Below the pieces are notes generated by a model. The model was not told the DNA's origin. It made no database searches and saw only the letters and a list, made by a program, of their open reading frames with translations. From Janibacter indicus (lineage in GTDB: Bacteria; Actinomycetota; Actinomycetes; Actinomycetales; Dermatophilaceae), in assembly GCF_900176385.1 (NCBI RefSeq), contig NZ_FWXN01000013.1, positions 1 through 64,000 on the forward strand: a DNA stretch of 64,000 bases, written 5' to 3'. The position numbers and the translations under genes were made by a program. Positions 3,193-64,000 of the stretch are shown here, piece after piece; the stretch's first letter is position 1, and each line of letters opens with the position of its first letter.

Positions 3193-4461
3193 TCAGCTCG
3201 CAGTCGTGCCGGGCTCGAGGCGGGCTCCCGGCTCGAGGACGACCCCCTTCGCCACGTGCGACTCACGACCGACGAGCACGACGGCGGAGTCCGAGGGCGG
3301 CCAGCGCTTCGGCTGGGCCCCGACCTGCGCGTCCTCGCCGACCCGGCACGAGTCGTCGACGACCGAGGCGTAGACCTGTGCACCGGACGCGACCCGCACC
3401 CGGTGCATGAGCACCGAGTCCTCGACCACCGCTCCCGCCTCGACGACGCAGCCCGGTCCGACGACGCTGCGGCGCACGGTGCCGTGCACGTGCGACCCGG
3501 GGCTGATCATCGAGTCCTCGACGACGCTGCCCGCGTGCATCATCGGCGGCGGCATCTCCGGCGACCGGGTGAGGATCGGCCACGCCGGGTCGTCGAAGAC
3601 GTCGACTCGTCCGCGCAGCAGCTCGCGGTGCGCGGCCAGGTAGGCGGAGGGGCGGCCGAGGTCGCGCCAGTAGCCCGTGAGCGCGTACGCGTGGGTCTTC
3701 CCGCCCTCGACGAGCCGCGGGAGCAGGCGGTCGGGGAAGTCGCCGATCCCCTCCGTGAGCCCTGGGTCGGCCTGCGCCCGTTCGTGCCGGACCGCGTCGA
3801 GCGTGCGCAGCAGCACCGGGACGTCGTAGACGAAGATCTCGGCGGCGATCGTCCCGTGCGGCGGGCCGGTGGGCTTGTCGGTCAGCCCCTGCACGACGCC
3901 GTCCCGGCCGACGTCGACGACCGTCTTGTGCTTGGCCTGCGCGAGCGGCACCTCGACGGTGACGATCGTGGCCTCGGACCCGCGCTCGAGGTGCTGGGCG
4001 ACGACGGCCCGCATGTCGAGGCGGTAGACCTGGTCGGCGCTCGTCACGACGACGACCTCGGCGCCCGCCTCACGCAGCTGGGCACCCATCTTCAGCAGGT
4101 CGTCGGCGTTGCCGGCGCTGAAGCCCTCGGACCCGCTGGCCTGCCCTTCCTCCGGCACGAGCCGCCGGTAGCCGCCGCGGGTGCGGTCGAGGTCCCAGGG
4201 CCGCCCACCGGCGAGGTGGCGGTCGAGCGAGGACGCCTCGTACTGCACCGAGACCCACACGTCGGGGATGCCGCTGTTGCCGAAGTTGCTCAGTGCGAAG
4301 TCGACGAGCTGGTAGCTGCCGGCGAAGGGGAGGGCGGGCTTGGCGCGCTCACGCGTGAGGACGTCCATCCGGGAGCCCTGACCACCCGCCTGGACGACCC
4401 CGACGATCTTCGGGATGCGGGAGAGGGGGACGACGCTCGACATACCCAGATCCGCACTCAT
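3193..4461 (-). CDS. glgC: glucose-1-phosphate adenylyltransferase-like nucleotidyltransferase
   Basis: This 422-aa protein matches ADP-glucose pyrophosphorylase, which makes ADP-glucose for glycogen. The nucleotidyltransferase signature is at residues 22-41 (VVQAGGQGSRM, then RAKPALPF) and is followed by YQLVDFALSN. A left-handed beta-helix-like C-terminus starts near residue 300. The usual GGKGTRL loop reads GGQGSRM here, so a related sugar-nucleotide specificity is possible. The start at 4461 has AGGGGA about ten bases upstream; a second ATG at 4443 is less well supported. No other glycogen gene is adjacent in the window. Confidence 0.82.
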   Translation of the reverse strand: MSADLGMSSVVPLSRIPKIVGVVQAGGQGSRMDVLTRERAKPALPFAGSYQLVDFALSNFGNSGIPDVWVSVQYEASSLDRHLAGGRPWDLDRTRGGYRRLVPEEGQASGSEGFSAGNADDLLKMGAQLREAGAEVVVVTSADQVYRLDMRAVVAQHLERGSEATIVTVEVPLAQAKHKTVVDVGRDGVVQGLTDKPTGPPHGTIAAEIFVYDVPVLLRTLDAVRHERAQADPGLTEGIGDFPDRLLPRLVEGGKTHAYALTGYWRDLGRPSAYLAAHRELLRGRVDVFDDPAWPILTRSPEMPPPMMHAGSVVEDSMISPGSHVHGTVRRSVVGPGCVVEAGAVVEDSVLMHRVRVASGAQVYASVVDDSCRVGEDAQVGAQPKRWPPSDSAVVLVGRESHVAKGVVLEPGARLEPGTTAS

Positions 4462-4509
4462 CTCATGACGTCCCCTCGCGACAGTGTCTAGGTCGAGATG
4501 CCCATCTGG

Positions 4510-4815
4510 ACCTCATCACCAGGTCCCATGACAACGTCAGCATCGCACGGCTTGAACTGTGCCTGGACCGCGGTAGGGGTCGGCCTGGTCGTTCACCGCG
4601 TGCAGCAACGCCTCGACCCGGACGGCGCGGCGTCGCTGGTGACCGGGCCTACCCCGGTCAGCCCGGTCAGGTCGGCGAAGAACTCGTTCCATGCTGCCTG
4701 TCTCCTCGGTGTCCACCCGCAGGTCCAAGACCTCGCGCTGCCCGTCGCCGTTGACGCCCACGACGATCACCACGACGGCGTTGGTCACCGCCGGGCCCTC
4801 GGCCCTTCTTCACGT
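4510..4815 (-). pseudogene. relic of an IS256-family transposase
   Basis: Minus-strand translation gives pieces of a Mutator/IS256 transposase in more than one frame. VTNAVVVIVVGVNGDGQREV runs to EETGS, a one-base shift leads to WNEFFADLTGLTGV and VTSDA, and a further piece reads EALLHAVNDQAD then AVQAQF. In intact IS256 proteins these blocks are in one frame and separated by about 40 more residues. The relic therefore has a frameshift and an internal deletion, and neither end of the IS is recognisable. It lies between glgC and fadB and has no coding potential left. Confidence 0.65.
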
Positions 4816-4825
4816 CGAAACGACC

Positions 4826-4868
4826 GTGGTCCTCGCAACTCCTCGGACGCAGGAGTTGCGAGGACCAC
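4826..4868 (-). terminator. strong hairpin downstream of the fadA-fadB operon
   Basis: A perfect 18-bp inverted repeat with a 7-nt loop (stems 4826-4843 and 4851-4868) lies 77 bp past the fadB stop. There is no clear T tract on the minus strand, as is common for terminators of high-G+C bacteria. Confidence 0.65.
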
Positions 4869-4945
4869 GAGAAGCGAAGGTCGTCGTCGTGACCTCCCCT
4901 TCGACATGCCGGAAGCCGGTCAGGCCTCGTCATGCTGCCAACGCA

Positions 4946-7018
4946 TCAGGCCGGGACGCTGGCCACACCCTTCGGCAGGAAGCGCTGCCCGGTGACCTTC
5001 TCCGAGACGCCCTCACGGTCCAGGAGCGGCGTGAGGCCACCGTTCCAGAACTGGAAGCCGGCGCCGGTGATCATCGCGAGGTCGATGTCCATCGGGGCCT
5101 GGGCGACGCCGTCGTCGAGCATCGTGCGCACCTCCTCGGCGAGGACGCCGAGGACGCGCTCGCGGACCTGCTGCGCGGTGAGCTCGACCGGCGACTCGGG
5201 GGCGGTGAGCAGCTCGGCCGCGCCCTCGTCGTCGTAGGAGCGCTTGCCGGCCTCGACGAGTGCCTTGAGGTTGGGCGAGACGTAGAAGCGCTCGCCGAGC
5301 TCACGGCGGAGCGTCTCGCTGTTGTGCAGCGCGATCGCCGGACCGACGAGGCCGACGAGGACCAGCGGCGGCATCGGGGCCAGGCCCGCGATGCCCTCGT
5401 TGGCGACCTCGACCGGCGTGCCCTCGTCGACGATCTTCGAGAACTCGCCCATGAAGCGGCCGAGCAGGCGGTTGGCGATGAAGGAGGGGCTGTCCTTGAC
5501 CAGGATGCAGGTCTTCTTCAGGCCCTTGCCGGTGGCGAAGGCCGTGGCCAGCGCCGCGTCGTCGGTCCGATCGCCCGGGATGATCTCGAGCAGCGGCATG
5601 ACCGCGACCGGGTTGAAGAAGTGGAAGCCCACGACCCGCTCGGGGTGCTGCAGCTCGGACGCCATCTCGGTGATCGACAGCGACGAGGTGTTGGAGGCGA
5701 GCACGCACTCGGGCGTGACGACCTGCTCGACCTCGGCCCAGACCTTCTTCTTGACGCCCATCTCCTCGAAGACGGCCTCGATGACGAAGTCGGCGTCGGC
5801 GAAGCCCTCCTTGCTCGTGGAGCCGGTGATGAGGGCCTTGAGCTGGTTGGCCTTGTCCGGCGTGATCTTGCCCTTGGCGAGGGAGGTGTCGATCTCGCCG
5901 TGGACATAGGCGACGCCCTTGTCGACCCGCTCCTGGTCGAGGTCGGTCATGACCACCGGCACCTTGAGCGAGCGGATGAAGAGCATCGCCAGCTGGCTGG
6001 CCATGAGGCCGGCGCCGACGATGCCGACCTTGCCGACCGGGCGCGCGAGCGCCTTGTCGGGGGCGCCGGCAGGTCGCTTCGCGCGCCTCTGCACGAGGTC
6101 GAAGGAGTACAGCCCGGCGCGCAGCTCGTCACCCATGAGCAGGTCGGCCAGGGCCTCGTCCTCGGCGGCGAAGGCGGCATCGCGCTCGGCGGTGCGCGCG
6201 GCCTTGACGAGCTCGATGGCGCGGTAGGGCGAAGGGGACTTTCCTGCGGTCTTCGCGTCGGCCAGCTGCGTGGCGGCCGCGGCAGCGGCCTCCCACACGG
6301 CGGCGTCGTCGTTCACCGGCTCGCGCTCGACCTTCGTCTCGCCGGAGAGCACACCGGCGGCCCAGATGATCGACTGCTCGAGGAAGTCGGCGCCGTCGAG
6401 GAGCGCGTCGGCGAGGCCCAGCTTCGCCGCGGCCGGGCCGTTCAGCATCCGGTTGGTGTTGAGCGGGTTCTCGACGATGACCTTGAGGGCCTTCTCCGGG
6501 CCGACGAGGCGGGGGAGCAGGTAGCAGCCGCCCCAGCCGGGGACGAGGCCGAGGAAGACCTCGGGCAGCGCGATCGCCGGCACGGCCTTGCTCATCGTGC
6601 GGTAGTCGCAGGCCAGCGACAGCTCGACGCCACCGCCCATCGCTGCACCGTTGACGAACGCGAAGGTCGGCACCGGAAGGTCCATGACCGCCGCGTACGC
6701 GGCGTGGCCAGCGCGGGCGATCTCGAGGGCCTGCTCGCGGGAGGCGACACCCGGGACTCCGGACAGGTCGGCGCCCACCGCGAAGATGAAGGGCTTGCCG
6801 GTCACGGCGACCGCGACGATCTCGCCGGCCTCGGCGCGCTGCTGCAGCGTCGCGACGGCGGCGCTGAGGCCGGCCATGCCCTCGAGGCCGAAGGTGTTGG
6901 GCTTGGTGTGGTCGTGGCCGTTGTCCAGCGTGACGAGGGCCAGCGTCCCGCCGTCGGCGGGGAGCTGGACGTCCTGGACGAGGGCGCGGGTGACGACCTC
7001 GGGCTTGGGCTCGCTCAT
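4946..7018 (-). CDS. fadB: 3-hydroxyacyl-CoA dehydrogenase/enoyl-CoA hydratase, fatty-acid oxidation subunit alpha
   Basis: This 690-aa bifunctional beta-oxidation enzyme has an N-terminal crotonase fold and C-terminal 3-hydroxyacyl-CoA dehydrogenase domains. The crotonase part carries NGAAMGGGVELSLACDYR (residues 123-140) and LPEVFLGLVPGWGG (151-164); E132 and E153 match the two catalytic glutamates of FadB. The Rossmann motif VGIVGAGLM lies near residue 337 and is followed by GFHFFNPVAVMPLLE with the dehydrogenase His. It hydrates enoyl-CoA and oxidises the 3-hydroxyacyl-CoA. The ATG at 7018 was chosen because it lies two bases past the fadA stop, whereas an upstream GTG would overlap fadA. 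It forms an operon with fadA. Confidence 0.93.
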   Translation of the reverse strand: MSEPKPEVVTRALVQDVQLPADGGTLALVTLDNGHDHTKPNTFGLEGMAGLSAAVATLQQRAEAGEIVAVAVTGKPFIFAVGADLSGVPGVASREQALEIARAGHAAYAAVMDLPVPTFAFVNGAAMGGGVELSLACDYRTMSKAVPAIALPEVFLGLVPGWGGCYLLPRLVGPEKALKVIVENPLNTNRMLNGPAAAKLGLADALLDGADFLEQSIIWAAGVLSGETKVEREPVNDDAAVWEAAAAAATQLADAKTAGKSPSPYRAIELVKAARTAERDAAFAAEDEALADLLMGDELRAGLYSFDLVQRRAKRPAGAPDKALARPVGKVGIVGAGLMASQLAMLFIRSLKVPVVMTDLDQERVDKGVAYVHGEIDTSLAKGKITPDKANQLKALITGSTSKEGFADADFVIEAVFEEMGVKKKVWAEVEQVVTPECVLASNTSSLSITEMASELQHPERVVGFHFFNPVAVMPLLEIIPGDRTDDAALATAFATGKGLKKTCILVKDSPSFIANRLLGRFMGEFSKIVDEGTPVEVANEGIAGLAPMPPLVLVGLVGPAIALHNSETLRRELGERFYVSPNLKALVEAGKRSYDDEGAAELLTAPESPVELTAQQVRERVLGVLAEEVRTMLDDGVAQAPMDIDLAMITGAGFQFWNGGLTPLLDREGVSEKVTGQRFLPKGVASVPA

Positions 7019-8232: not shown

Positions 8233-8356
8233 GGTGGGCCTCTCTGTCGTGGTGCAGGAGCAGCCGGGTGGTTCCACCCGACGCCTCTGAGGCTACTAAG
8301 CGCTTGCTCACCTGCGACAGGTGCGCCTCGCGTGACCCCGCCCACGTTCCCCCTTC

Positions 8357-8400
8357 GCTGGTCGAGGTGGGAGGCCTTCCACGGCCGAGCCTCGAGACCC
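8357..8400. repeat. GGTCGAGG/CCTCGAGACC dispersed imperfect palindrome, copy A
   Basis: The element starts GCTGGTCGAGGTGGGAGG and ends GAGCCTCGAGACCC. A second copy with the same ends but a different middle lies at 31667-31709. The ends can pair, so it resembles a REP-type intergenic element. It sits about 125 bp upstream of the fadA start. Confidence 0.6.
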
Positions 8401-10400: not shown

Positions 10401-10472
10401 CCTGCGAGGGTAGGTCGCCGACGGCCGCCAGCGCGGGAGGGCACGCCGGACGGGCATGGGAGGATGCGGCCC

Positions 10473-11528: not shown

Positions 11529-12515
11529 TCAGGCCTCCGCGGTCGGGGTCGCAGGCGTGGCTGCGGGACGAGCCGCCCGACGGCGGCGCACCCACCACAC
11601 GAGCGGCGCTCCGAGGATCGCCAGCGTCACGGCGAAGGGGGTCACCGCGCCGAGCACGGTCATGCCGACGGCCAGTGCGTCGGTGAAGGCCGACCACCCG
11701 GAGCCCAGCCCGGCGAGGAAGCCGGTGCGCTCCTCCTCGGGCTCGTCGGCCGGTGCGTCCTCGGTCGTCAGGCTCACTGTGATCGGGGCCGTCGTCGTGC
11801 GCTTCTCGAGCGACTTCTGCTGGCTCTTCAGCGCCTCGAGGTCCGCCTCGCGCGTCGACAGCTGGCTCTCGAGCGAGACGATCTGGTCGAGGTCGTCGGC
11901 GGAGTCGATGAGCTTGCGCAGTCGCTCCACCGAGGCGGTCATCGTGCGCACCCTGGCGTCGGTGTCGGTGTACTGCGAGGTGAGGTCCTCCGCCTCGGCC
12001 GAACGGTGGGTCACCTCGCCGACGTCGGCAAGCTTGGTGATCGTCGCGTCGAGCTCGTCGACGGGGACGGTGACGGTGATCTCCGCCCAGTCGCCGCGCG
12101 ACCCGTCATCAGCCCGCGAGTCCTCGCTCGAGACATAGCCGCCGGCACGCCTGGCCGTCGAGCGCACCTTGGCGCTGGCCTGGTCGACGTCCCCCACGGT
12201 CAGCGACAGCTCCGCGGAACGGGCCACGTGCGTCCCGGCCGGCGTCGTGTCCGATGCCTTGTGGCTGGACCGCTGCTGGTCACTCTGCCCTGACGAGTCC
12301 CGCCCTGACGCGTCCTGCGCTGAGCCCGGCGCCGCTCCACCGGCGGCCGACTCGCTCTGCCCGTCCCCGGAGCTCTGGGTCGTGGACATGCTGGGTGCCA
12401 CGTCGCTGCCACTGTCGCTACCGCCGGCGCAGCCCGCCAGGGTCACCCCGCCCGCGGCGACCAGCGCCGCCCAGCGTGCCGTCGTCCACCGTGTCGTCCC
12501 TCGTGTGTTGCTCAT
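11529..12515 (-). CDS. DUF4349 lipoprotein with C-terminal membrane anchor
   Basis: This 328-aa protein has an N-terminal lipoprotein signal with lipobox LAGC (TLAGCAGGSD), then a Ser/Gly/Gln-rich linker. A DUF4349 domain starts around SAELSLTVGDVDQASAKV and includes a coiled coil (ESQLSTREADLEALKSQQ). One C-terminal membrane helix ends in WWVRRRRA. It should be exposed on the outer face of the membrane. The function is unknown. The ATG at 12515 follows AGGGGTGA; an upstream GTG at 12563 has no such support. It is convergent with hemE and divergent from hemY. Confidence 0.85.
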   Translation of the reverse strand: MSNTRGTTRWTTARWAALVAAGGVTLAGCAGGSDSGSDVAPSMSTTQSSGDGQSESAAGGAAPGSAQDASGRDSSGQSDQQRSSHKASDTTPAGTHVARSAELSLTVGDVDQASAKVRSTARRAGGYVSSEDSRADDGSRGDWAEITVTVPVDELDATITKLADVGEVTHRSAEAEDLTSQYTDTDARVRTMTASVERLRKLIDSADDLDQIVSLESQLSTREADLEALKSQQKSLEKRTTTAPITVSLTTEDAPADEPEEERTGFLAGLGSGWSAFTDALAVGMTVLGAVTPFAVTLAILGAPLVWWVRRRRAARPAATPATPTAEA

Positions 12516-12643: not shown

Positions 12644-14059
12644 ATGCCCCCTTCGGTCGTCGTCGTGGGTGGCGGACTCGCCGGTCTGGCCACGGCCCAC
12701 CACCTCCTGAGCTCCCGCCCCGACCTCGAGGTCACCGTCCTCGACGGGGGCGACCGCCCCGGTGGCAAGGTCCGCCGCGAGGAGGTCGGCGGTGTGCGGG
12801 TCGACGTCGGCGCCGAGTCGGTCGTCGCCAGCAGCGTCGCCGCCCGAGAGCTCGTCACCGGGCTGGGGTTGGCCGACCGGATCGTCCACCCCGAGCCGGT
12901 GCCCGCCTCGATCTGGTCCCGCGGCCGACGGCACCCGGTGCCGGCCCGCACCTTCATGGGCGTCCCCGGTCACGACTGCGACCCCTCCGGTCTCCTCGAC
13001 GAAGGGGAGGTCGCCCGCGCCACGCAGCCGACCCCCTTCGTCGTGGACCGCGACGACGTCACCGTCGCCGAGGCGGTCGCGACCGTCCACGGCCGTGCCG
13101 TCGTCGACCGGGTCGTCGAGCCGCTCCTCGGTGGCGTCTACGCCGGGCGGGTGGACCGCCTGTCGCTGCGCGCGACGATGCCGCTGCTGTGGGCGGCGCT
13201 CGCCGACGGCCGGTCGATGACCGAGGCCGTCGACGGGCTGCTCCCGCCGCCGGGGACCCCGCCGCGACCACGCGTCATGGGGCTGCGCGGGGGCATCGGG
13301 GGGCTCGCCGACGCCCTGGCCGATGCCGTCGTCGCCGCCGGCGGTCGGATCCGGACCGGGAGCCTCGTGCGGCGCCTGCAGCGCACGCCCACCGGCTGGC
13401 AGGTCATCGCCGGGGCGACCACCGCGCCCGTCGTCCACGACGCCGACCACGTCGTCCTCGCCACGCCCGCGACCCCGACCGCTCGCCTGCTCGCCGGCCA
13501 CGCGCCGGCCGGGTCGTCCGCGCTCGCCGGCATCGAGTACGCCTCGATGGCGGTCATGACGATGGCGCTGCCCGCGGCCACCACGCCGCAGCTTCCGGGC
13601 AGCGGTTTCCTCGTGCCGGCGGTCGAGGGCACGGCGATCAAGGCGAGCACCTTCAGCGCCTCGAAGTGGGCCTGGGTCCGCGAGGCCGGCGGGGAGGTCG
13701 TCCTGCTGCGCGCCTCGGCAGGGCGCGCGGGCGAGGTCGCCTCCCTCCAGCGCGACGACGACGAGCTCGTCGCCGCGGCGCTCGCCGAGATCGGCGAGGC
13801 GGTGGGCTCGCCGCTGCCCACGCCGGTCGACCACCACGTGCAGCGCTGGGGCGGCGGGCTGCCGCAGTACGACCTCGGGCACACTGAGCGGGTCGCCGCG
13901 GTCCGCGCCGCGGTGGCCGACCTGCCCGGGATCGAGGTCACCGGGGCGGCCTACGACGGTGTGGGCATCGGCGCGGTCCTCACCGGGGCCGCCGCCACGG
14001 CCACGACGATCCTCGACGCACTTCCCCCTTCGTCCACCCCTCGACAGGAGCACCGATGA
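12644..14059 (+). CDS. hemY: coproporphyrinogen III oxidase/protoporphyrinogen oxidase (HemY type, CgoX)
   Basis: This 471-aa FAD enzyme starts [20 protein letters not shown] with the dinucleotide-binding motif GGGLAGLA and has the family C-terminus [13 protein letters not shown]. In actinobacteria with HemQ this enzyme oxidises coproporphyrinogen III to coproporphyrin III. The neighbouring hemQ makes that the likely substrate here. The start at 12644 is preceded by a G-rich GGGAG stretch. Its last codon overlaps the hemQ start as ATGA, so the two genes are probably coupled. Confidence 0.9.
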
Positions 14060-14775
14060 CCACCCGGCCCGTCCCCGCCAAGCCCACGCGCGAGCAGCTC
14101 GAGGCGATCAACAGCAGCGTGCACTACGCGATGTTCAGCGCCTTCGCGCTCGTGACGCCCGTCGGTGACGACGACCGCGCGGCGATCACGCAGGAGGTCG
14201 AGGCGCTCTTCGCGGAGCTCACCGAGGGGGGCGTGCGCATCCGTGGCGTCTACGACGTCGCGGGCCTGCGCGCCGACGCCGACATCCTCGTGTGGTGGCA
14301 CGCCGACGACATCGAGCTGCTGCAGGACGCCTACAAGCGACTGCTGCGCACCGAGCTCGGCGCGCACCTCGACCCGGTGTGGTCCAACGCCGCGGTCCAC
14401 CGTCAGGCGGAGTTCAACCGCAGCCACGTGCCGGCCTTCATGGCGGGGGAGGAGCCGCGCGACTACGTGTGCGTCTACCCCTTCGTGCGCTCCTACGACT
14501 GGTACGTCCTCGACGACAAGGACCGCCGCTTCATGCTCGCCGAGCACGGGGCGATGGCCAAGGACTACCCGGACGTGCGCGCCAACACCATCCCTGCCTT
14601 CGCCCTCGGCGACTACGAGTGGATTCTCGCCTTCGAGGCCGACGAGCTGCACCGCATCGTCGACCTCATGCGCGAGCTGCGGGCCTCCAAGGCGCGCCTG
14701 CACGTGCGCGAGGAGATCCCCTTCTTCACCGGCCCGCGCGTGAGCGTCGAGGCCCTGGTGGCCGGCCTGCGCTGA
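14056..14775 (+). CDS. hemQ: coproheme decarboxylase (HemQ/ChdC)
   Basis: This 239-aa protein of the chlorite dismutase-like family decarboxylates coproheme to haem b in the last step of the coproporphyrin route. Family blocks seen are [39 protein letters not shown] (with the active-site Tyr region), [21 protein letters not shown] and [12 protein letters not shown]. It overlaps hemY by ATGA. Ferrochelatase (cpfC) is not in the window. Directly after the stop is copy 1 of the dispersed palindrome. Confidence 0.94.
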
Positions 14776-14803
14776 CGCGGCGCGGCGGCTCAGGTCCCAC
14801 CTG

Positions 14804-14887
14804 CCCCACGATTTCCGGGTCACCCGAGAAACTGCCCCTTCGCAAGGGTTTGAAACCCTTGCGAAGGGGCAGTTTCTCTTGCTGAGC
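14804..14887 (+). repeat. dispersed palindromic element, copy 1
   Basis: It begins CCCCACGATTTCCGGGTCAC and ends CTTGCTGAGC. Within it 14826-14878 is an almost perfect inverted repeat (stem of at least 24 bp around a single central base) that contains CCCCTTCG and its complement. It lies 28 bp past the hemQ stop. Confidence 0.9.
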
Positions 14888-14981: not shown

Positions 14982-15893
14982 ATGATCGACGTCACCAGCG
15001 ACCTCTTCGCCGATCTGCTGCGGCTGCCCGACGGTCTCTTCACGCGCCAGGACGCCGTGCGCGCGGGGGTGCGTGACCGCGTCATCGCCGCCGCCGTACA
15101 CCGTCGGCTCATCGTCCGGGTCTGTCGTGGTGTGTACACGTCACCCGGCCCTCTCACCGTCGACGAGCAGCGTCACCTCGTGGCCCGCGCAGCACTGCGC
15201 TCCTACGAGGACGCCGTGCTCGTCGGAGCGCCCGCCGTCGCCGCTCATGGCATCCCGCTCTTCGAGGTGCCGGCGCTGCCGGGGGACATTGCGCGACCGA
15301 TCGTCAGGGAGGCGCGGACTGCGCAGCTGCGGATCCGCCCCCTTCGTCATGCGTCGGTGGAGACCGACTGGGGGCCGGCGACGGATCTGCCGACCTCGCT
15401 CCTCCAGCTGACGATGGACCACGGCATCCCGGCTGGGATCGCGTCCATCGACGCGGCCCTGCACACCGGCGCCACGGACACCGACGCGCTGCAGGCGGCG
15501 CTGGGCGAGATCGCCGCGTGGCCCCGCTCGTCCCGGGCTCGATGCGCCATTGCCTGGTCCGATGGGCGGGCGGAGTCGCTGGGAGAGAGCGTCACTCGCG
15601 CGATCCTGAATGGTGCCGGCTACCGCGTCGACTCGCAGGTGCGCATCGCCGACGGTGACGGGGTGGTCGTCGCCCGTGTCGACCTGGGCATCGAGGGCAC
15701 CCACGTGCTCCTCGAGTTCGACGGCAAGGTCAAGTACACGGATGGTGGGCCCGATGCGCTCTTCCGGGAGAAGAAGCGCGAGGACCGGATCAGGTCCCTC
15801 GGCTACGTCGTCATCCGCGTGACCTGGGCTGACCTCTTCCACGCCGAGCGCATCGTGCGCGCGGTCCGGGATGCCCTCGCTGCGGCCGCCTGA
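14982..15893 (+). CDS. AbiEi-type winged-helix plus DUF559/Vsr-like (PD-(D/E)XK) protein
   Basis: Residues 10-60 resemble the AbiEi antitoxin winged helix (LPDGLFTRQDAVRAGV, then RLIVRVCRGVYTSP). Residues 200-300 resemble DUF559/Vsr endonucleases: E202, D234 in ARVDLGI, E245-F-D-G-K in HVLLEFDGKV, and a tail REDRIRSLGYVVIRVTWADL. These could form a PD-(D/E)XK active site. The 303-aa form starts at ATG 14982, which has no Shine-Dalgarno site but a 7-bp hairpin (14962-14981) directly before it; a GTG at 14916 would add 22 unlikely residues. There is no AbiEii toxin partner. The cognate role is unknown: orphan antitoxin, nuclease or DNA-binding regulator. Confidence 0.75.
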   Translation: MIDVTSDLFADLLRLPDGLFTRQDAVRAGVRDRVIAAAVHRRLIVRVCRGVYTSPGPLTVDEQRHLVARAALRSYEDAVLVGAPAVAAHGIPLFEVPALPGDIARPIVREARTAQLRIRPLRHASVETDWGPATDLPTSLLQLTMDHGIPAGIASIDAALHTGATDTDALQAALGEIAAWPRSSRARCAIAWSDGRAESLGESVTRAILNGAGYRVDSQVRIADGDGVVVARVDLGIEGTHVLLEFDGKVKYTDGGPDALFREKKREDRIRSLGYVVIRVTWADLFHAERIVRAVRDALAAAA

Positions 15894-15905
15894 GGTTGAC
15901 AAGAC

Positions 15906-15977
15906 AAACTGCCCCTTCGCAGCAGTTTCAAACTCCTGCGAAGGGGCAGTTTCTCGGGTGACCCGGAAATCGTGGGG
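15906..15977 (-). repeat. dispersed palindromic element, copy 2 (inverted)
   Basis: On the minus strand it begins CCCCACGATTTCCGGGTCAC from 15977 and keeps the 16-bp outer stem AAACTGCCCCTTCGCA and its complement. The inner arms differ from copy 1 but still mostly pair. It lies between the convergent DUF559-like gene and msrB. Confidence 0.9.
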
Positions 15978-19064: not shown

Positions 19065-19093
19065 GACGAAGGGGGGAGCCGCCCCCCTTCGTC
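19065..19093. repeat. inverted pair of the CGAAGGGG motif
   Basis: A perfect 12-bp stem (GACGAAGGGGGG with its complement) closes a 5-nt loop in the divergent region between the nuclease start (18961) and the polymerase start (19118). It is not in a terminator position for either gene. Confidence 0.8.
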
Positions 19094-26966: not shown

Positions 26967-27050
26967 CCCCACGATTTCCGGGTGACCCGAGAAACTGCCC
27001 CTTCGCATGGGTTTCAAACTCTTGCGAAGGGGCAGTTCCTCTTGCTGAGC
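26967..27050 (+). repeat. dispersed palindromic element, copy 3 (solo)
   Basis: It begins CCCCACGATTTCCGGGTGAC and ends CTTGCTGAGC like copy 1, with the same GAAACTGCCCCTTCGCA stem. No partner copy or cargo gene is adjacent. It lies between the tRNA cluster terminator and the PH-domain gene. Confidence 0.9.
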
Positions 27051-28602: not shown

Positions 28603-28646
28603 GTCGAAGGGGGCCGCTCCCGGCGTCGGGAACGGCCCCCTTCGAC
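28603..28646. repeat. long inverted repeat containing paired CGAAGGGG motifs
   Basis: Stems GTCGAAGGGGGCCG and CGGCCCCCTTCGAC, plus a few more pairs inside, form a 14-bp or longer hairpin between the divergent XRE and YjbR-like genes. It may be an operator or part of the motif family. Confidence 0.8.
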
Positions 28647-38037: not shown

Positions 38038-38083
38038 AGAATGCGCTTGGTGGCACCCGGCGGATCGGGGAGGATCCCCCTTC

Positions 38084-41957: not shown

Positions 41958-42014
41958 CCGCCGGATCGGCGACGCGGGCGAAGGGGGGAGGGCGCGCGGT
42001 GGTCGTGGGTGTGC

Positions 42015-49203: not shown

Positions 49204-50592
49204 TCAGCCCGGGGACCGGATCTCCCGGATGCGCTCCCGCAGCCACGCGTAGCTGTCCTTGGGCACCCGCTGCTGATCACCCTCGACGTCGACCCGCACG
49301 AGCCCGAAGCGCTGCGTGTAGCCCTCGGCCCACTCGAAGTTGTCGAGCAGCGACCACACGAACCAGCCCCTGACGTCGACCCCGGCGTCGAGGGCATCGG
49401 CCACGGCATCGAGGTGCTGGTCGAGGTAGCGGATGCGCGCCTCGTCGTGCACCGTGCCGTCCTCGACCACGTCGTGCGTCGAGCACCCCGACTCGGTGAT
49501 GTGGACCGGGGGGAGCCGGTCGCCGTAGCGCTCGCGCAGCTGCACGAGGACCTCGGTCAGACACTCTGGCGCGACCGGCCACCCGAAGGCGGTGTACTCG
49601 CGAGCTGGCACCGGCACGAGCTGGAAGGGGATGCCATCGGGCACCTCCAGCTGGACCTGCTGGTCGGGGACCGCGGCGCGGGCGGCCGCGGTGCCGGGCG
49701 ACCCGGGCATCCCGACGAGCGTCGGGTTGTAGTAGTTGACCCCGTAGGCATCGAGGGGCGAGCTGATGACCGTCAGGTCCTCGGCGACCGGGCCGGGCAT
49801 CCCGTCACCCATGCCGTTGGGGTACTCGCCGAGCAGGATCGGCTCGGCGAAGGCCCGGTTGTGGATCGTGTCGTAAAGCGCTGCGGCAGCGACGTCCTCG
49901 TCGGCCTCGCTCACCGCGTGGACCGGGGTGTGGTTGTTGGCCGTGCCGATCGCAGCGACCCCCTCCGCGCGCAGCGACCGCGTGGCCAGCCCGTGCCCCA
50001 GGAGCAGGTGGTGGGCTGCGGCCAGGGCCTCGAAGCCGCGGGATTCGCCGGGGGCGTGCAGCCCGATGGCGTGGCCGAAGAGGGTCGCGACGACCGGCTC
50101 GTTGACCGGGATCCACATGGCCACCCGGTCGGCGAGGCGGTCGGCGACGAGGGCCGCGTAGTCGCCGAAGCGCTCGGCGGTCTCCCGGGCCATCCAGCCG
50201 CCCTTCGCCTGCAGGGCGGCGGGCAGGTCCCAGTGGTAGAGGGTGGCGAAGGGGGCGATCCCCGCCTTGCACAGGGCGTCGACGGCACGGTCGTAGAAGT
50301 CGAGACCGGCCGCATTGGCCGGCCCCGCCCCGTCGGGCTGGATGCGCGGCCAGGCGATGGAAAACCGGTAGGCGTCGACGCCCAGCCCGTGCAGGAGCTC
50401 GACGTCCTCGTCCCACCGGTGGTAGCTGTCGCAGGCCACCGCGCCCGAGGACCCGTCGGCGATCGCGCCGGGGCGGTCGCAGAAGTCGTCCCAGATGCTG
50501 CGGCCACGGCCACCGGCGGTCACACCCCCTTCGATCTGGTAGCTGGCGGTCGACGTGCCGAAGAGGAAGTCGCGGGGCAGGGGCGTGGGCAT
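49204..50592 (-). CDS. beta-glucosidase, glycoside hydrolase family 1
   Basis: This 462-aa enzyme has LPRDFLFGTSTASYQIEGG at the N-terminus, the acid/base E165 in WIPVNEPV and the nucleophile E367 in HITESGCS. WFVWSLLDNFEWAEGYTQRF is the family's C-terminal block. There is no signal peptide, so it acts in the cytoplasm on imported beta-glucosides. It lies seven bases after a sugar-type MFS transporter, which would bring the substrate in. Confidence 0.95.
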   Translation of the reverse strand: MPTPLPRDFLFGTSTASYQIEGGVTAGGRGRSIWDDFCDRPGAIADGSSGAVACDSYHRWDEDVELLHGLGVDAYRFSIAWPRIQPDGAGPANAAGLDFYDRAVDALCKAGIAPFATLYHWDLPAALQAKGGWMARETAERFGDYAALVADRLADRVAMWIPVNEPVVATLFGHAIGLHAPGESRGFEALAAAHHLLLGHGLATRSLRAEGVAAIGTANNHTPVHAVSEADEDVAAAALYDTIHNRAFAEPILLGEYPNGMGDGMPGPVAEDLTVISSPLDAYGVNYYNPTLVGMPGSPGTAAARAAVPDQQVQLEVPDGIPFQLVPVPAREYTAFGWPVAPECLTEVLVQLRERYGDRLPPVHITESGCSTHDVVEDGTVHDEARIRYLDQHLDAVADALDAGVDVRGWFVWSLLDNFEWAEGYTQRFGLVRVDVEGDQQRVPKDSYAWLRERIREIRSPG

Positions 50593-50599: not shown

Positions 50600-51880
50600 C
50601 TAGGCGACGCTGCGGATCTTGCGGATGAGGACGGCGGCCGCCAGGCCGATGGCCGCGGCGAGCAGGTAGAGCGTGCGGTAGCCCGCAGCGTGGGTCGCAT
50701 GGGCGGCGAACCACGTGATGATCGGTCCGGCGACCGCCGGGGCCAGGACCTGTGGAAGGGCATTGGCGATGTTGATGACCCCGAGGTCGCGGGCCCGGTC
50801 ACCGGCCCGCGGGAGCACCTGGGTGATGAGCGCGAAGTCGACGGCGAGGTAGACGCCGTAGCCGATGCCGAGGATCACCGCACCGACGAGCGCCGCGGAC
50901 CAGGTCTGGACGATCGCGAGGAGGACCGCCGCGCTCGACATGACGACGCCGGAGGCGGTGACGAAGGGCTTGCGCAGGCCGATTCGGTCGGACCAGATGC
51001 CGGCGACGATCGCGGAGACGATGAGGCACGCGGCGTAGAGCAGGGTGAGCACGAGGACGCCGAGCTCGGGGTCGGCGACGCCGACGGCATCGGTGAGGAA
51101 GAAGAGCAGGTACATCGTGCAGATCGAGTTGGCGACCGTCGCGAGGAAGCGCGTGGCCCAGGCCCACGCGAAGTCGGGATGGCGTCGTGGCGAGATCCAG
51201 AAGCCGGCGAGGAACTGCCGCACGGGCGTCCTCGGCAGGTGGCCGCGGGGGAGTGGCCGGTCGAGGGAGCGCAGCACGAAGGGGGTGACCGCGGCGACCG
51301 CGAGCACGGCCAGGACGAGGTAGGCGCCGGTGGTGCCGGAGACGAGGGTCGCGACCCCGGTGCCGACGACGATGCCGAGGGTCTGGGTCATGCCGACGAC
51401 GCCGCTCACGAGCCCGCGCTGCTCGACGGGGACGAGATCGGGCACGGCGGCGGTGAGCGCGGCGAGGGTGCCGTTGAGCCCGGCCTGGACGAGGCACCAG
51501 CCGAGGATCATGAGGGGGACCGACCCGGCCGCGGCGAGGACGACGAGGCCGAGGGCCCCGACGAGCGTCCCGCCGACGAGCCACGGGACCCTCCGGCCGA
51601 AGCGCGAGGTCGTCCGGTCGCTGAAGGCTCCCGCGAGCGGGTTGGCGAGCGTCGACACGGCGGCGCCGACACCGGTGACGAGGGAGAGGGTGGCCTCCTT
51701 GTGGCCGGGCGTCAGGCTCGCGGCCTGGAGCCCGAGGAGCACCTGGATCGGGCCGAACCATCCGGCGCACATGCCCACACCGGCAAGGCCGAGGCGGGCG
51801 ATCCACCCGGGCGGGACCGGTGTCGTCGGGTCCGCGAAGGGGTCCGGGGCGTCGACGGTGACGCCCGACGGGGGCTGCAT
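50600..51880 (-). CDS. MFS transporter, glucoside/sugar type
   Basis: This 426-aa protein has about 12 helices. Loops include GAFSDRTTSRFGRRVPWLVG (MFS motif A) and GIWSDRIGLRKPFVTASGV. It resembles sugar:cation symporter-like MFS proteins of actinobacteria. The next gene is a family 1 beta-glucosidase, so import of a beta-glucoside is the likely role. TAGCAT lies six bases before the ATG, as for a leaderless transcript. Confidence 0.85.
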   Translation of the reverse strand: MQPPSGVTVDAPDPFADPTTPVPPGWIARLGLAGVGMCAGWFGPIQVLLGLQAASLTPGHKEATLSLVTGVGAAVSTLANPLAGAFSDRTTSRFGRRVPWLVGGTLVGALGLVVLAAAGSVPLMILGWCLVQAGLNGTLAALTAAVPDLVPVEQRGLVSGVVGMTQTLGIVVGTGVATLVSGTTGAYLVLAVLAVAAVTPFVLRSLDRPLPRGHLPRTPVRQFLAGFWISPRRHPDFAWAWATRFLATVANSICTMYLLFFLTDAVGVADPELGVLVLTLLYAACLIVSAIVAGIWSDRIGLRKPFVTASGVVMSSAAVLLAIVQTWSAALVGAVILGIGYGVYLAVDFALITQVLPRAGDRARDLGVINIANALPQVLAPAVAGPIITWFAAHATHAAGYRTLYLLAAAIGLAAAVLIRKIRSVA

Positions 51881-55232: not shown

Positions 55233-55320
55233 GGGACGACGAAGGGGGTCGCACATGGGGTCTGGTACTCAGCGGGGAATGCGTTGGGGGCCGCCCCCTT
55301 CGCGGGGATAGAGTTCGACG

Positions 55321-55363: not shown

Positions 55364-57412
55364 GTGTCTGCCCAGATCACCATCAACGTCGCCGGAGACG
55401 AGCGATCGGTGGACCAGGGCACTACTGCCGCGGACCTCTTCGAGGGCGACGGGGCCGTGCTCGTCGCCCGGGTCAACGGCGAGCTGCGGGACCTCGCGCA
55501 CGAGCTCGCCCAGGGCGATGTCGTCGAGCCGGTCACGGCGCAGGAGCAGGACGGCCTCGACGTGCTGCGGCACTCCACGGCCCACGTCCTGGCCCAGGCC
55601 GTGCAGCAGATCAACCCCTCCGCCAAGCTCGGCATCGGCCCGCCGATCCGCGACGGCTTCTACTACGACTTCGACGTCGAGGAGCCCTTCACCCCCGAGG
55701 ACCTCAAGGCCCTCGACAAGGCGATGCAGCGGATCATCAACGAGGGCCAGACCTTCGTTCGCCGCGAGATCAGCGACGACGACGCGCTCGTCGAGCTGGC
55801 CGACGAGCCCTACAAGTGCGAGCTCATCGGCCTCAAGGGCGGCGCCTCCGAGGACGCTGCGGAGGGCGCTTCGGTCGAGGTGGGCGGCGCCCAGCTGACG
55901 ATCTACGACAACGTCCGTCGCGACGGCACCCGCGCCTGGGGTGACCTGTGCCGCGGCCCGCACGTGCCGAGCACCAAGGTCATCGGCAATGCCTACAAGA
56001 TCATGCGCAGCGCCGCGGCCTACTGGCGCGGCAGTGAGAAGAACCCGCAGCTGCAGCGCGTCTACGGCACGGCCTGGCCGACCAAGGACGAGCTCAAGGC
56101 CTATCTCGACCGCCTCGCCGAGGCCGAGAAGCGCGACCACCGCAAGCTCGGCCGCGAGCTCGACCTCTACTCCTTCCCCGACGAGATCGGCTCCGGCCTG
56201 CCCGTCTTCCACCCCAAGGGTGGCGTCATCAAGCGGGAGATGGAGGACTACGTCCGGCGGCGGCACATCGAGGAGGGCTTCGAGTACGTCGGGACCCCCC
56301 ACATCGCCAAGGAGGGGCTCTTCCACACCTCCGGCCACCTCCCGTACTACGGCGAAGGCATGTATCCCCCCTTCGACGTCGACGGCATGGACTACCGCCT
56401 CAAGGCGATGAACTGCCCCATGCACAACCTCATCTACCGCAGCAAGCAGCGCTCCTACCGCGAGCTGCCGCTGCGGCTCTTCGAGTTCGGGCACGTCTAC
56501 CGCCACGAGAAGTCCGGCGTCATCCACGGCCTGACCCGGGTGCGCGGCTTCGCGCAGGACGACAGCCACTCCTACGTCACCAAGGAGCAGGCGCCCGACG
56601 AGATCCGTCACCTGCTCGACTTCATCCTCGGGCTGCTGCGCGACTTCGGTCTCGACGACTTCTACCTCGAGCTGTCGACCCGCGACGAAGGGGGCGACAA
56701 GAGCTCGAAGTTCATCGGCAGCGACGAGGACTGGGCCGAGGCGACGTCCGTCCTCGAGCAGGTGTGCTCCGAGACCGGTCTCGAGCTCGTGCCCGACCCG
56801 GGCGGCGCGGCCTACTACGGCCCCAAGGTGTCGGTGCAGGCTCGTGACGCGATCGGCCGCACCTGGCAGATGAGCACGATCCAGTACGACTTCAACCAGC
56901 CGTCCGCGGACCGCTTCGCGCTCGAGTACCAGGCCGCCGACGGCTCCCGTCAGCAGCCGGTGATGATCCACTCGGCGAAGTTCGGCTCGATCGAGCGCTT
57001 CATCGGGGTGCTCGTCGAGCACTACGCCGGCGCCTTCCCGGTGTGGCTCTCGCCCGTCCAGGTGCTCGGGGTGCCGGTCGCCGAGGAGTACAACGACTAC
57101 CTCTGGGACGTGCTGCAGCAGATGCGGGCGCAGGGGATCCGCGTCGAGCTCGACGAGAGCGACGACCGCTTCCCGAAGAAGATCCGCAATGCGAGCAAGT
57201 CCAAGGTGCCCTTCACCCTCATCGCCGGTGAGGAGGACCGCAGCAACAACGCGGTCTCCTTCCGCTACCGCGACGGGTCCCAGGAAAACGGGCTGCCGAT
57301 CGAGACCGCGATCGCGCGCGTCCTCGCGGCCGTCGAGGCCAAGGACCAGGTGATGTCGGCCCCGAGCCTGACCAACCCCGGCCCGGATGCCGCCCCCGCC
57401 GGCACGATCTGA
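55364..57412 (+). CDS. thrS: threonyl-tRNA synthetase
   Basis: This 682-aa class II enzyme has a TGS domain (residues 1-62), the editing domain with [11 protein letters not shown], and the catalytic core with [27 protein letters not shown] and [17 protein letters not shown]-type motif 3. A C-terminal anticodon-binding domain follows ([20 protein letters not shown]). The GTG start has AGGAG nine bases upstream. It precedes the HIT-pgsA-pimA genes as in mycobacteria (Rv2614c), with a GNAT gene and a DUF6882-like gene inserted between. Confidence 0.97.
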
Positions 57413-58715: not shown

Positions 58716-58737
58716 CGAAGGGGAGAACTCCCCTTCG
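58716..58737. repeat. inverted pair of the CGAAGGGG motif
   Basis: CGAAGGGGAG-AA-CTCCCCTTCG is a perfect 10-bp stem with a 2-nt loop in the divergent region between the DUF6882-like gene and the HIT gene. Confidence 0.8.
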
Positions 58738-62188: not shown

Positions 62189-62748
62189 GCTGGATCGCCC
62201 TGACGCTCTGCGTCCTGCTCCTCCTCGCCTGGTACCTCTCCTACAGCGCCGCGCGGCTCGATCGCCTGCACGCCAAGGTCGAGGGCGCCCTGTCGGCCCT
62301 CGACGCGCACGTCGTGCGCCGGGCGGAGGCGAGCCTCGAGCTGGCCAACTCCGGCGCGGTCGACCCGGCGACGGGCTTCCTCCTGGCGGCCGCGGCGAGC
62401 GAGTCGCTGGAGCGGGTCAACGAGCGCACCTTCGAGGCCGACCTCCTCGAGGGACAGCACTTCGCCGGCCGGGAGTCGGTCGAGAGCGAGCTGACCGAGA
62501 TCCTGCACGCGGCGCTGCCACCCGAGGTCACCCGCGACATCGAGGCGCAAGGGGACCCCGGAGCCGCTGCGCTCGAGCGCGTCCGCGAGGCGGGCCTGCG
62601 GGTGCAGCTCGCCCGTCGCTTCCACAACGACGCTGTCAAGGACGTCCAGCGGGTGCGGGCCAAGCGGGTGGTGCGCCTGTTCCGACTGGCCGGCCACGCC
62701 GACCTGCCGCAGACCGTGGAGTTCGACGACACGCTCCCGGGAGCCTGA
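62176..62748 (+). CDS. LemA-like membrane-anchored protein
   Basis: This 190-aa protein has one N-terminal helix (WIALTLCVLLLLAWYLSYSA) and then a LemA-type helical domain: RLDRLHAKVEGALSALDAHV, ARRFHNDAVKDVQRVRAKRV and RLFRLAGHADLPQTVEFDD. Function is unknown; it sits where mycobacteria carry Rv2609c after pimA. Its start lies inside the 3' end of pimA, so it belongs to that operon. Confidence 0.82.
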   Translation: METLSWIALTLCVLLLLAWYLSYSAARLDRLHAKVEGALSALDAHVVRRAEASLELANSGAVDPATGFLLAAAASESLERVNERTFEADLLEGQHFAGRESVESELTEILHAALPPEVTRDIEAQGDPGAAALERVREAGLRVQLARRFHNDAVKDVQRVRAKRVVRLFRLAGHADLPQTVEFDDTLPGA

Positions 62749-62764
62749 GCGCCGCACAGCCGTC

Positions 62765-62977
62765 ATGATCGGGGCATGTCGTCGCTGGTCCTCGGGGTGC
62801 TGTGCTTGCCTCCCCCTGCTGCTCGCCGCACTCGTCGCCGCGCTCCTGCTCGCGGTGCGCGGCGAGCGGGCCCGCCGGCGTCCCCTTCGTGGTGGGGCCG
62901 GGTACCGACCCGCGGAGACGACACCGGGCCACGTCGAGCCGCCGTCACCGAGCGGGCCCGGCCACCAGCTGCCCTGA
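62765..62977 (+). CDS. possible small membrane protein with a frame problem
   Basis: A 70-aa frame from 62765 contains a helix LPLLLAALVAALLLAVRGER and a charged tail ending PSGPGHQLP. The more natural start, ATG 62776 (MSSLVLGVLCL), is in another frame; one base less in the C run near 62813 would join it to the helix. It may be a real short gene with a sequence error or a decayed gene. I do not recognise a family. Confidence 0.35.
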   Translation: MIGACRRWSSGCCACLPLLLAALVAALLLAVRGERARRRPLRGGAGYRPAETTPGHVEPPSPSGPGHQLP

Positions 62978-62985
62978 CGTCGGGC

Positions 62986-64000
62986 TCAGGCCGTGGCGGT
63001 CGCGGCGGCGACGATGTCGTCGGCGAGGGTCGCGGCCGAGGCCTCGTCGAGGTCGTGCACCGTGAGGCGCAGGTGCTGCGAAGGGGGTGCGCCCTCCGCC
63101 AGGCGGAACTCGTCTCCCGTGCGCACCAGCCAGCCACGCCGGGTCAGCCGATCGGCGACCTCCCGTGCCGCGACCGGCAGCGGGACCCACAGGCTGACGC
63201 CGTCACCGGGAGAGGTGGGCAGGCCACGCTCGGTGAGCAGCGCGGCGAAGGCGGCATTGCGCTCGGCGTAGTGCACCCCGGCGCGCTCGATGAGTGCGAG
63301 CGCGGAGGGGTCGGTGATCACCGCGTGGGTGATCCGCTGCAGCAGGTGGCTGACCCAGGTGGTCCCGGGGCTCAGGCGCATCTCGAGGCGGGCGGCGGTG
63401 TCGGCGTCGCAGGCCGTGACGGCCAGGCACATGTCGGGGCCGACGAACTTCGAGACCGAGCGCACCAGCGCCCAGCGCCGGTGATCGGGGCCGACGATGG
63501 AGTGGAAGGGCTGCTGGGACAGGTAGGAGAAGTAGTCGTCCTGGATGACGAGGACGTAGGGGTGGTCGGCGAGCACCTCGCGCAGCGCCGTGGCGCGGGC
63601 GGCACTCAGCGAGGAGCCGGTGGGGTTCTGGGCCCGCGGGGTGCACACGACCGCCCGCACACCCTGCTCGAGGGCGTGGCGCAGCCCCTCGACCGTCATG
63701 CCCTCGGCGTCGACCGGGACCGGGACCGCCCGGTAACCGCCGAGCTGGGCGAGATGGATGCTCGCGAGGAAGCACGGGTCCTCGAGCGCCACGGCGTCGT
63801 CGCGCAGCAGCGCCTGCGCGAGCAGGCGCTCGACGGCATCGACCGCGCCGCTCGTCAGGGTCAGCCGCACCTCTTCGGCCGGGACCGGGACGTCGGGGGC
63901 CATCCAGTCGAGCGCCCACGACCCGAGGTCCCGGTCGATCGTCGGCTCGCCGTAGAGCACGGGGCCGCGATCGGCGACGCTCGCCAGGGCCGGCGCGAGG
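62986..64000 (-). CDS. PLP-dependent aminotransferase, probably C-terminal part of a MocR/PdxR-like regulator (partial)
   Basis: The frame is open from the stop at 62986 to the window edge. The visible 338 residues are a fold-type I aminotransferase: TSGAVDAVERLLAQALLRDD, TPRAQNPTGSSLSAAR, VIQDDYFSYLS and the cofactor lysine in RSVSKFVGPDMCLAV. The sequence and the position near conserved genes that in other actinobacteria precede pdxS/pdxT suggest a GntR-MocR regulator of vitamin B6 synthesis. The DNA-binding domain would be off the window, so a plain aminotransferase is possible. Confidence 0.75.
   Translation of the reverse strand, partial: LAPALASVADRGPVLYGEPTIDRDLGSWALDWMAPDVPVPAEEVRLTLTSGAVDAVERLLAQALLRDDAVALEDPCFLASIHLAQLGGYRAVPVPVDAEGMTVEGLRHALEQGVRAVVCTPRAQNPTGSSLSAARATALREVLADHPYVLVIQDDYFSYLSQQPFHSIVGPDHRRWALVRSVSKFVGPDMCLAVTACDADTAARLEMRLSPGTTWVSHLLQRITHAVITDPSALALIERAGVHYAERNAAFAALLTERGLPTSPGDGVSLWVPLPVAAREVADRLTRRGWLVRTGDEFRLAEGAPPSQHLRLTVHDLDEASAATLADDIVAAATATA

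Follow-up and report, generated by a model that had tools for sequence, protein, structure and literature searches.

An over-represented octamer with features of a DNA uptake sequence in a probable Janibacter genome, and its counterparts across the family

The stretch analysed here, a 64-kb window from contig NZ_FWXN01000013.1, carries within its genes (thrS among them) and between them many copies of the octamer CGAAGGGG, which is the subject of this report. The ThrS protein encoded here shares 96% identity with ThrS of Janibacter hoylei, with which it groups in a tree, and the source genus (g1 in our numbering) is most likely Janibacter, which is placed in the Intrasporangiaceae in the NCBI taxonomy. 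The window holds 60 exact copies, 28 on the plus strand and 32 on the minus strand (Table 1). When the window was shuffled 100 times with dinucleotides preserved, the word appeared 3.2 times on average (standard deviation 1.73, largest 8), and each of its 24 single-mismatch neighbours is less frequent (0-22 copies each). A preliminary description of this DNA had reported about 60 copies on both strands about equally, at some tenfold excess; the count and the strand balance hold, and the excess is nearer 19-fold.

The excess extends to the entire 3.42-Mb genome, in which CGAAGGGG occurs 2337 times (1168 and 1169 copies on the two strands, or 0.68 per kb) and the reversed word, used as a control, only 144 times (79 and 65). 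In a 399,596-base sample of this genome (391 called genes; hereafter the own sample) there are 293 copies of CGAAGGGG and 0-122 of each single-mismatch neighbour. Taken together, the genome-wide count, the shuffles and the neighbour counts indicate that the enrichment is neither local nor compositional, and we regard the genome-wide over-representation of the word as confirmed. A maximal-order Markov expectation, which is built from the sub-words of a word, gave CGAAGGGG no rank, since the motif itself makes up most of those sub-words. For comparison we used 400,000 bases (357 copies) from G012, a single-contig relative of the same genus.

The copies share an extended consensus, G-R-CGAAGGG-(G>A)-(G>A>T), that is slightly longer and softer than the octamer; CGAAGGGGG, CGAAGGGAG and CGAAGGGGA are present in the own sample in 212, 70 and 45 copies, respectively. 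Coding sequences contain 221 copies in the own sample, compared with a mean of 55.9 and a maximum of 71 in 40 within-gene synonymous shuffles, and 242 copies in the G012 sample, compared with a mean of 49.2 and a maximum of 65. The excess thus persists beyond a codon-corrected expectation, and the shuffle understates it because the codons of the motif itself remain in the shuffled pool. Density is higher outside genes (1.91 per kb non-coding versus 0.61 coding in the own sample, and 3.05 versus 0.67 in G012); these values, like those for CGGCATAC below, are approximate, since genes were called by a simple script that sets starts approximately and misses some genes (six uncovered stretches of more than 400 bases remain in the window). 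It had been suggested that the motif forces codons that the organism otherwise avoids. This is correct for the GAA-GGG frame, which accounts for 38 of the 221 copies that lie in genes of the own sample and uses a codon chosen for only 4.2% of glutamates in the sampled genes; the two examples originally cited, R-D-E-G-G-D-K at 56686 and R-R-D-E-G-G-S-A-P at 29362, are accurate. It does not apply to the most used frame, antisense CCC-TTC (Pro-Phe; 111 of 221), whose codons are common in the organism.

Neighbouring copies that lie no more than 60 bases apart are nearly always inverted. The ratio of inverted to direct pairs is 21:1 in the own sample and 34:2 in G012 (55:3 in total), where random placement would give totals of 12.6 and 18.6 close pairs, with the two arrangements equally frequent (binomial p 1e-5 and 2e-8). 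Three of the 21 inverted pairs in the own sample sit in one repeat element. All six hairpins listed in the preliminary description are present in the window, and further close inverted pairs exist at 13000-13040 and 55240-55302. The stems are often longer than the word itself, with varying loops, and when five of the places were folded, four gave z-scores of -2.7 to -12.7 and one gave -1.3. The two samples together hold 36 inward-facing pairs; convergent genes flank 12 of them, divergent genes 8 and tandem genes 10, while 5 are intragenic and 1 is at the end of a stretch.

Table 1. Occurrences of CGAAGGGG in the 64-kb window, as single copies and as inverted pairs
Feature	Coordinates	Strand	Remarks
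CGAAGGGG copy	3244..3251	-	exact match
CGAAGGGG copy	4323..4330	+	exact match
CGAAGGGG copy	4896..4903	-	exact match
CGAAGGGG copy	6230..6237	+	exact match
CGAAGGGG copy	8350..8357	-	exact match
CGAAGGGG copy	11633..11640	+	exact match
CGAAGGGG copy	12648..12655	-	exact match
CGAAGGGG inverted pair	13000..13040	+ then -	within called gene
CGAAGGGG copy	14025..14032	-	exact match
CGAAGGGG copy	14478..14485	-	exact match
CGAAGGGG inverted pair	14835..14869	- then +	within longer palindromic repeat element
CGAAGGGG copy	15339..15346	-	exact match
CGAAGGGG inverted pair	15912..15946	- then +	within palindromic repeat element, opposite orientation
CGAAGGGG copy	17003..17010	-	exact match
CGAAGGGG copy	18277..18284	+	exact match
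CGAAGGGG inverted pair	19067..19091		intergenic, 12-bp stem
CGAAGGGG copy	21212..21219	+	exact match
CGAAGGGG copy	23151..23158	-	exact match
CGAAGGGG copy	24991..24998	+	exact match
CGAAGGGG copy	25399..25406	+	exact match
CGAAGGGG inverted pair	26998..27032	- then +	within palindromic repeat element
CGAAGGGG copy	27970..27977	-	exact match
CGAAGGGG inverted pair	28605..28644		long stem-loop, -42.3 kcal/mol, z -7.85
CGAAGGGG copy	29362..29369	+	exact match, GAA-GGG frame
CGAAGGGG copy	29587..29594	-	exact match
CGAAGGGG copy	30600..30607	-	exact match
CGAAGGGG copy	32164..32171	+	exact match
CGAAGGGG copy	34248..34255	+	exact match
CGAAGGGG copy	35491..35498	+	exact match
CGAAGGGG copy	36052..36059	-	exact match
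CGAAGGGG copy	36952..36959	-	exact match
CGAAGGGG copy	37429..37436	+	exact match
CGAAGGGG copy	38077..38084	-	exact match
CGAAGGGG copy	38536..38543	-	exact match
CGAAGGGG copy	39924..39931	-	exact match
CGAAGGGG copy	41223..41230	+	exact match
CGAAGGGG copy	41979..41986	+	exact match
CGAAGGGG copy	42483..42490	+	exact match
CGAAGGGG copy	44142..44149	-	exact match
CGAAGGGG copy	45685..45692	-	exact match
CGAAGGGG copy	46786..46793	-	exact match
CGAAGGGG copy	48786..48793	-	exact match
CGAAGGGG copy	50247..50254	+	exact match
CGAAGGGG copy	50526..50533	-	exact match
CGAAGGGG copy	51277..51284	+	exact match
CGAAGGGG copy	51835..51842	+	exact match
CGAAGGGG inverted pair	55240..55302		directly upstream of thrS; folding z -1.34, no better than chance
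CGAAGGGG copy	56368..56375	-	exact match, in thrS
CGAAGGGG copy	56686..56693	+	exact match, in thrS, GAA-GGG frame
CGAAGGGG inverted pair	58716..58737		intergenic, 9-bp stem
CGAAGGGG copy	62882..62889	-	exact match
CGAAGGGG copy	63079..63086	+	exact match

A palindromic element of about 84-95 bp is present three times in the window (14803-14897; 15880-15974, inverted; 26966-27060) with CCCCTTCG/CGAAGGGG in its almost fully paired stem. A search for its pattern in the remaining 335,596 bases of the own sample and in the 400 kb of G012 gave no match. The element could be a small mobile element or one of the REP (repetitive extragenic palindromic) type that carries the word. As the source of the signal this element was rejected, since it holds only six of the 60 copies in the window.

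Individual sites are conserved above matched octamers in the comparison with G012. In aligned regions (87.2% identity), 54 of 66 copies of the own genome are intact in G012, compared with 1105 of 2150 matched control octamers, whose two A/T letters form AA or TT (p 5e-7); in the reverse direction 54 of 72 copies and 1105 of 2017 controls are intact (p 6e-4). All five copies that could be compared with J. hoylei are kept there, and five of eight are kept in the reverse direction.

A stretch of contig C7 of the own genome that was singled out for its poverty in the motif, between the copies at 71271 and 111418, contains two copies of CGAAGGGG where about 27 are expected (Poisson probability of three or fewer copies, 5e-9), and only one lies in its central 20 kb (80001-100000). 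Among the matches listed for these central 20 kb in the 15 other g1 genomes, the longest is about 2.1 kb and most show 65-83% identity; several central segments also match elsewhere in the own genome. These characteristics fit a recently acquired island in which the motif would sink to background, about as rare as the reversed word. The island also carries a second DprA-family gene (99641-100291), an SSB-like gene, with another just before it (both judged by eye), and numerous proteins that have no recognisable name.

The word is restricted to a small part of the family. CGAAGGGG is abundant in all 16 g1 genomes (1198-2588 copies) and in all three genomes of one related genus, g35 (2589-3180), and the other 167 of the 186 family genomes hold 84-396 copies. 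Among 297 genomes of an order-level sample, the five with enrichment all belong to g1 or g35. Candidate words were first sought in 39 genera, each sampled over about 20 kb, where a ranking of octamers by simple ratio proved noisy and was replaced by an order-2 Markov ranking combined with whole-genome counts. In 30 of the 53 genera, one genome or more holds at least 1,000 copies of a second octamer, CGGCATAC; its numbers on the forward and reverse strands are similar, and it has only 7-41 copies in g1 and g35. A third, CGGCATCC, is present in 2099-4480 copies in g9, g15 and g51 versus 241-1336 in other genomes. In two of the four g15 genomes (G051 and G052), CGGCATAC and CGGCATCC each exceed 1,000 copies.

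The distribution of CGGCATAC resembles that of CGAAGGGG. In 17 pooled samples, 152 coding copies were counted versus a synonymous-shuffle mean of 17.1, and the density is 1.00 per kb between genes versus 0.57 within them. Close pairs of CGGCATAC are inverted in 21 cases and direct in none (28 loci, some of them mutually homologous). In ten samples from genera that have none of the words, CGAAGGGG, CGGCATAC and CGGCATCC are all at expectation. Among named species, each represented by a locus of about 22 kb, Marihabitans asiaticum has 29 copies of CGAAGGGG, and 10-18 copies of CGGCATAC are found in two Knoellia, three Terrabacter, Intrasporangium oryzae, Phycicoccus Soil802, a Lapillicoccus, Ornithinimicrobium tianjinense and a Serinicoccus. 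Other family members have few or none (Phycicoccus Soil748, 4; Intrasporangium calvum, 5; Ornithinimicrobium pekingense, 2; Kribbia and Kineosphaera, 0). The region 5' of thrS contains two copies of CGAAGGGG in the window and in J. hoylei, and one in Marihabitans. When the 260 bases upstream of thrS were inspected in 17 of 80 loci, four held an inverted CGGCATAC pair (two Knoellia, Phycicoccus and Lapillicoccus), three held one copy, two held CGAAGGGG and eight held neither.

Several further signals were encountered during these searches. A g22 locus (L060) contains 12 copies of CGGCATTC beside eight of CGGCATAC in 20 kb, and CGGCATTC is a possible fourth dialect. Three genomes (G113 of g41, G023 of g4 and G083 of g32) have only 19-50 copies of CGGCATAC where sampled congeners have hundreds to thousands, which points to a possible recent loss or change of dialect. 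Within g1, GGCATTGG and CGGCATTG exceed the codon shuffle four- to eightfold in coding sequence of the own sample and G012, perhaps as a relic of a CGGCAT-type dialect. In 14 Nocardioidaceae loci, CGGCGTAC, one base away from CGGCATAC, has 154 coding copies versus a shuffle mean of 44.4. We do not claim it as a further uptake word, its excess being about 3.5 times the shuffle mean with no extra intergenic density; it may represent a weak similar signal in other families, or a codon-pair bias.

A tree of 35 ComEC sequences, 12 of whose 32 inner branches are unresolved, places the three sequences from CGAAGGGG genomes (two g1, one g35) in one clade with a Shimodaira-Hasegawa-like approximate likelihood ratio test (SH-aLRT) support of 98. 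This clade is nested among CGGCATAC genera, with g24 as its neighbour (97), and g15 is united with g46 (97). The simplest account of this topology is that CGGCATAC was replaced once by CGAAGGGG.

A set of competence and tad genes, a search for which had been proposed on first inspection, is present in the own genome. Pfam matches identify ComEA (SLBB, HHH_3), ComEC (Competence and metallo-beta-lactamase domains) and some of the tad proteins; DprA is encoded as well, with paralogues on contigs C7 and C15, and there are two tad clusters. Locus tad-1 includes a DUF4244 pilin (Flp-like) and a protein with a weak match to TadE. In tad-2 there are TadA, one TadE, another TadE that is weakly matched, and a TadE/G-like protein; two TadE matches fall just under the Pfam cut-off, and TadB, TadC and the tad-2 Flp were named from position and reading. 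Candidate minor pilins are present in both loci. In Micrococcus luteus, transformation is described as requiring ComEC and both tad clusters (PMC4322843).

The ATPase of tad-2 separates motif from motif-less genera in one direction only. No match better than 8.5e-53 was found in 13 genomes of g2, g12, g16, g27, g28 and g37, all of them motif-less. By a line between presence and absence that was drawn after the E-values had been seen, the gene is present in all 34 motif genera (at least one genome each at 8.7e-113 or better) and also in 13 of the 19 other genera (weakest best match 5.2e-110; Fisher p 0.001, uncorrected for kinship).

These architectural features, coupled with the gene content, suggest that CGAAGGGG is probably a DNA uptake sequence by which Janibacter and one related genus recognise DNA of their own kind, read by a receptor of the Tad/Flp type. 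Such a function had been proposed in the preliminary description, and it gains support from the copy number, the strand balance, the inverted pairs, the codon-corrected excess, the background level in the island and the clade-specific words. The evidence that bears on it directly is the copy number and distribution of the word, its conservation in one well-sampled comparison, the clade words, the ComEC clade and the transformation genes; from these we infer uptake, a receptor and a drive. A surface component of the competence pilus (Tad/Flp type), with a minor pilin as the likeliest candidate, would bind the word on double-stranded DNA and so favour DNA from the same clade. One strand would then be taken in by ComEA and ComEC, and DprA and RecA would recombine it. 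Alleles that create a copy would spread through biased uptake, because fragments bearing the word would enter more often; copies would therefore accumulate within and between genes on both strands, and would not do so in recently acquired DNA. A shift in receptor preference could gradually rewrite a genome into a new dialect, and the outcomes would be CGGCATAC across a large part of the family, CGGCATCC in three genera and CGAAGGGG in Janibacter and its relative. With less assurance, we lean towards a wider claim, namely that a Gram-positive family (34 of the 53 sampled genera) uses uptake sequences of independent origin, in at least three dialects read by a Tad component, and that the ancestor of Janibacter exchanged CGGCATAC for its present word.

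A number of observations weigh against this interpretation. The C7 island is a single stretch of about 40 kb and was chosen because it is poor in the motif. In two tad stretches compared with G002, a genome poorer in the motif (1553 copies), only 2 of 11 own copies are kept, which is below the control (117 of 395) and argues against uniform conservation; five of the nine lost sites differ by one base, and both G002 sites (2/2) are kept in the own genome. The conclusion is that sites are conserved above matched octamers relative to G012 and not relative to G002. Coding copies in the own sample are unevenly placed relative to transcription (76 sense, 145 antisense; 123 and 119 in G012). The reversed control of CGGCATAC is raised in some genera, up to 578 copies in G020, so that the excess there is only about threefold, and the reversed word also has 13 coding copies versus a shuffle mean of 3.0 in the 17 pooled samples. 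CGAAGGGG and CGGCATAC have little in common beyond CG, unlike the dialects of the Neisseriaceae, which keep a core. No consistent T-run was seen by eye behind the stem-loops formed by pairs. The ThrS tree (33 sequences) does not unite Janibacter with Marihabitans; ThrS may have been exchanged, or Marihabitans may not be g35. ComEC (PF03772) and T2SSE (PF00437) are nearly universal (180 and 185 of 186 family genomes), motif-less genera included; the presence of machinery is therefore not predictive of the motif, and we rejected it as a predictor. Finally, the tad-2 ATPase is weakly matched in several motif carriers: G092 (2.8e-55, the only match in its stretch and 30% identical), G117 (1.3e-59), G123 (6.1e-62), G072 (9.3e-69) and G100 (1.7e-44, 73% complete). 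In G012, which has the most copies in its genus, the match covers only residues 1-275 of 409 (L182, about 9769-10569). Recent loss or broken matches could account for these cases.

Other functions could give rise to an abundant octamer. The word might be a Chi-type hotspot, at which a RecBCD- or AddAB-like nuclease is attenuated and whose sequence differs by clade. Chi sites are typically skewed towards the leading strand, and their words differ between bacterial groups. High copy number, presence within genes and clade-specific octamers are all compatible with this function. We examined polarity in twenty 20-kb stretches distributed around the chromosome of G012. The origin was set at position 1, next to a first gene that resembles dnaA on visual inspection, and the terminus at the midpoint. 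The leading strand carries 190 copies and the lagging strand 167 (p 0.24), in agreement with the initial observation of no strand bias of the FtsK or Chi kind. This lack of replication polarity disfavours Chi- and KOPS-type functions, and a Chi function also offers no reason why close pairs should be inverted rather than direct. Despite the likeness of an over-represented clade-specific octamer in genes, we therefore consider a Chi role unlikely.

It is very unlikely that the word is a methylase or modification target that marks self DNA and is kept dense for defence or regulation. A non-palindromic 8-mer that is clade-specific and falls to background in one island would suit such a role. Genomes usually avoid restriction sites instead of accumulating them, and an enrichment of about 16-fold, inverted pairs and high intergenic density are not expected of a modification target. 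There is equally little probability that it is a site for a chromosome-organising or segregation protein (KOPS-, matS- or nucleoid-protein-like). Such sites could be spread through the genome as this word is, but no polarity switch at the terminus was found in G012, the 10-28 copies in each of its 20 stretches show no macrodomain pattern, and the swap to a different octamer in sister genera would be hard to explain.

A mutational, codon or gene-conversion bias that acts with no recognition function is highly improbable. Biased repair in a high-G+C genome could generate favourite words, and some single-mismatch words are fairly common (CGACGGGG has 122 copies in the own sample); yet every such neighbour is less frequent than CGAAGGGG, which stands fourfold above the synonymous shuffle, is strongest outside genes, is at background in the island and is absent from other genera of the family. 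A last possibility is that the word belongs to a terminator, or to some stem structure in RNA, that travelled with the ends of genes; the inward pairs between convergent genes and several stable stems might speak for it. As a full account it is refuted by the predominance of single intragenic copies (coding 221 of 293 in the own sample and 242 of 357 in G012), and we give it almost no credence, although some pair stem-loops near gene ends may also act as terminators in a secondary role.

Elsewhere in the window, a tRNA block at 26301-26908 is duplicated, with two tRNA-Gly(gcc) and two tRNA-Val(gac) genes around tRNA-Cys(gca). A 41-nt repeat follows each tRNA-Val.

The words of the family can be compared with established uptake systems. 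The DNA uptake sequences (DUS) of Neisseriaceae are described as present in thousands of copies, with terminator-linked inverted pairs and dialects that follow phylogeny, and two dialects can co-occur in one genome (PMC3630211). Thousands of copies, inverted pairs, clade-specific dialects and two words in one genome (G051 and G052) recur here. The differences are a Gram-positive host in Actinomycetota, a word unrelated to the neisserial core 5'-CTG-3', pilus genes inferred to be of the Tad rather than the type IVa kind, and the lack of a common core in CGAAGGGG and CGGCATAC. The uptake signal sequences (USS) of Pasteurellaceae are reported to number hundreds to thousands per genome, often as inverted repeats, and to exist in two versions (PMC12616744, PMC3630211). 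CGAAGGGG resembles the Haemophilus 9-mer AAGTGCGGT in copy number and inverted repeats, and differs from it in sequence and phylum. The density of CGAAGGGG, 0.68 per kb, is near that of the USS in Haemophilus. The USS has flanking A/T tracts, which have no counterpart among the aligned CGAAGGGG copies of the window. A parallel in gene content is Micrococcus luteus, which like Janibacter belongs to Micrococcales; its Flp/Tad pilus, ComEA, ComEC and DprA are the same kinds of genes as those of the own genome with its two tad clusters. We know of no uptake word in M. luteus. The term 'uptake sequence' is absent from the main text of the paper on its transformation (PMC4322843).

We hold that the words of this family may well work like uptake sequences, as they match the descriptions of DUS in the testable features, save that the contrast between core and acquired DNA comes from one island and that conservation failed in the small comparison with G002. 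In 2013 the need for short uptake sequences was called unique to Neisseria and Pasteurellaceae (PMC3630211). No earlier report of uptake sequences in Actinomycetota was seen among the matches listed in a search of titles and the beginnings of abstracts in open-licence literature. If our reading is correct, the family would represent a third and apparently independent origin of uptake words, in a Gram-positive phylum, and would allow the general features of such words to be asked about. Dialect contrasts in more than 30 genera would be available for finding the receptor by co-evolution. The natural transformability of many genera would be predicted, as would the word with which DNA should be labelled in laboratory transformation, and sexual isolation by uptake word would shape a large bacterial group.

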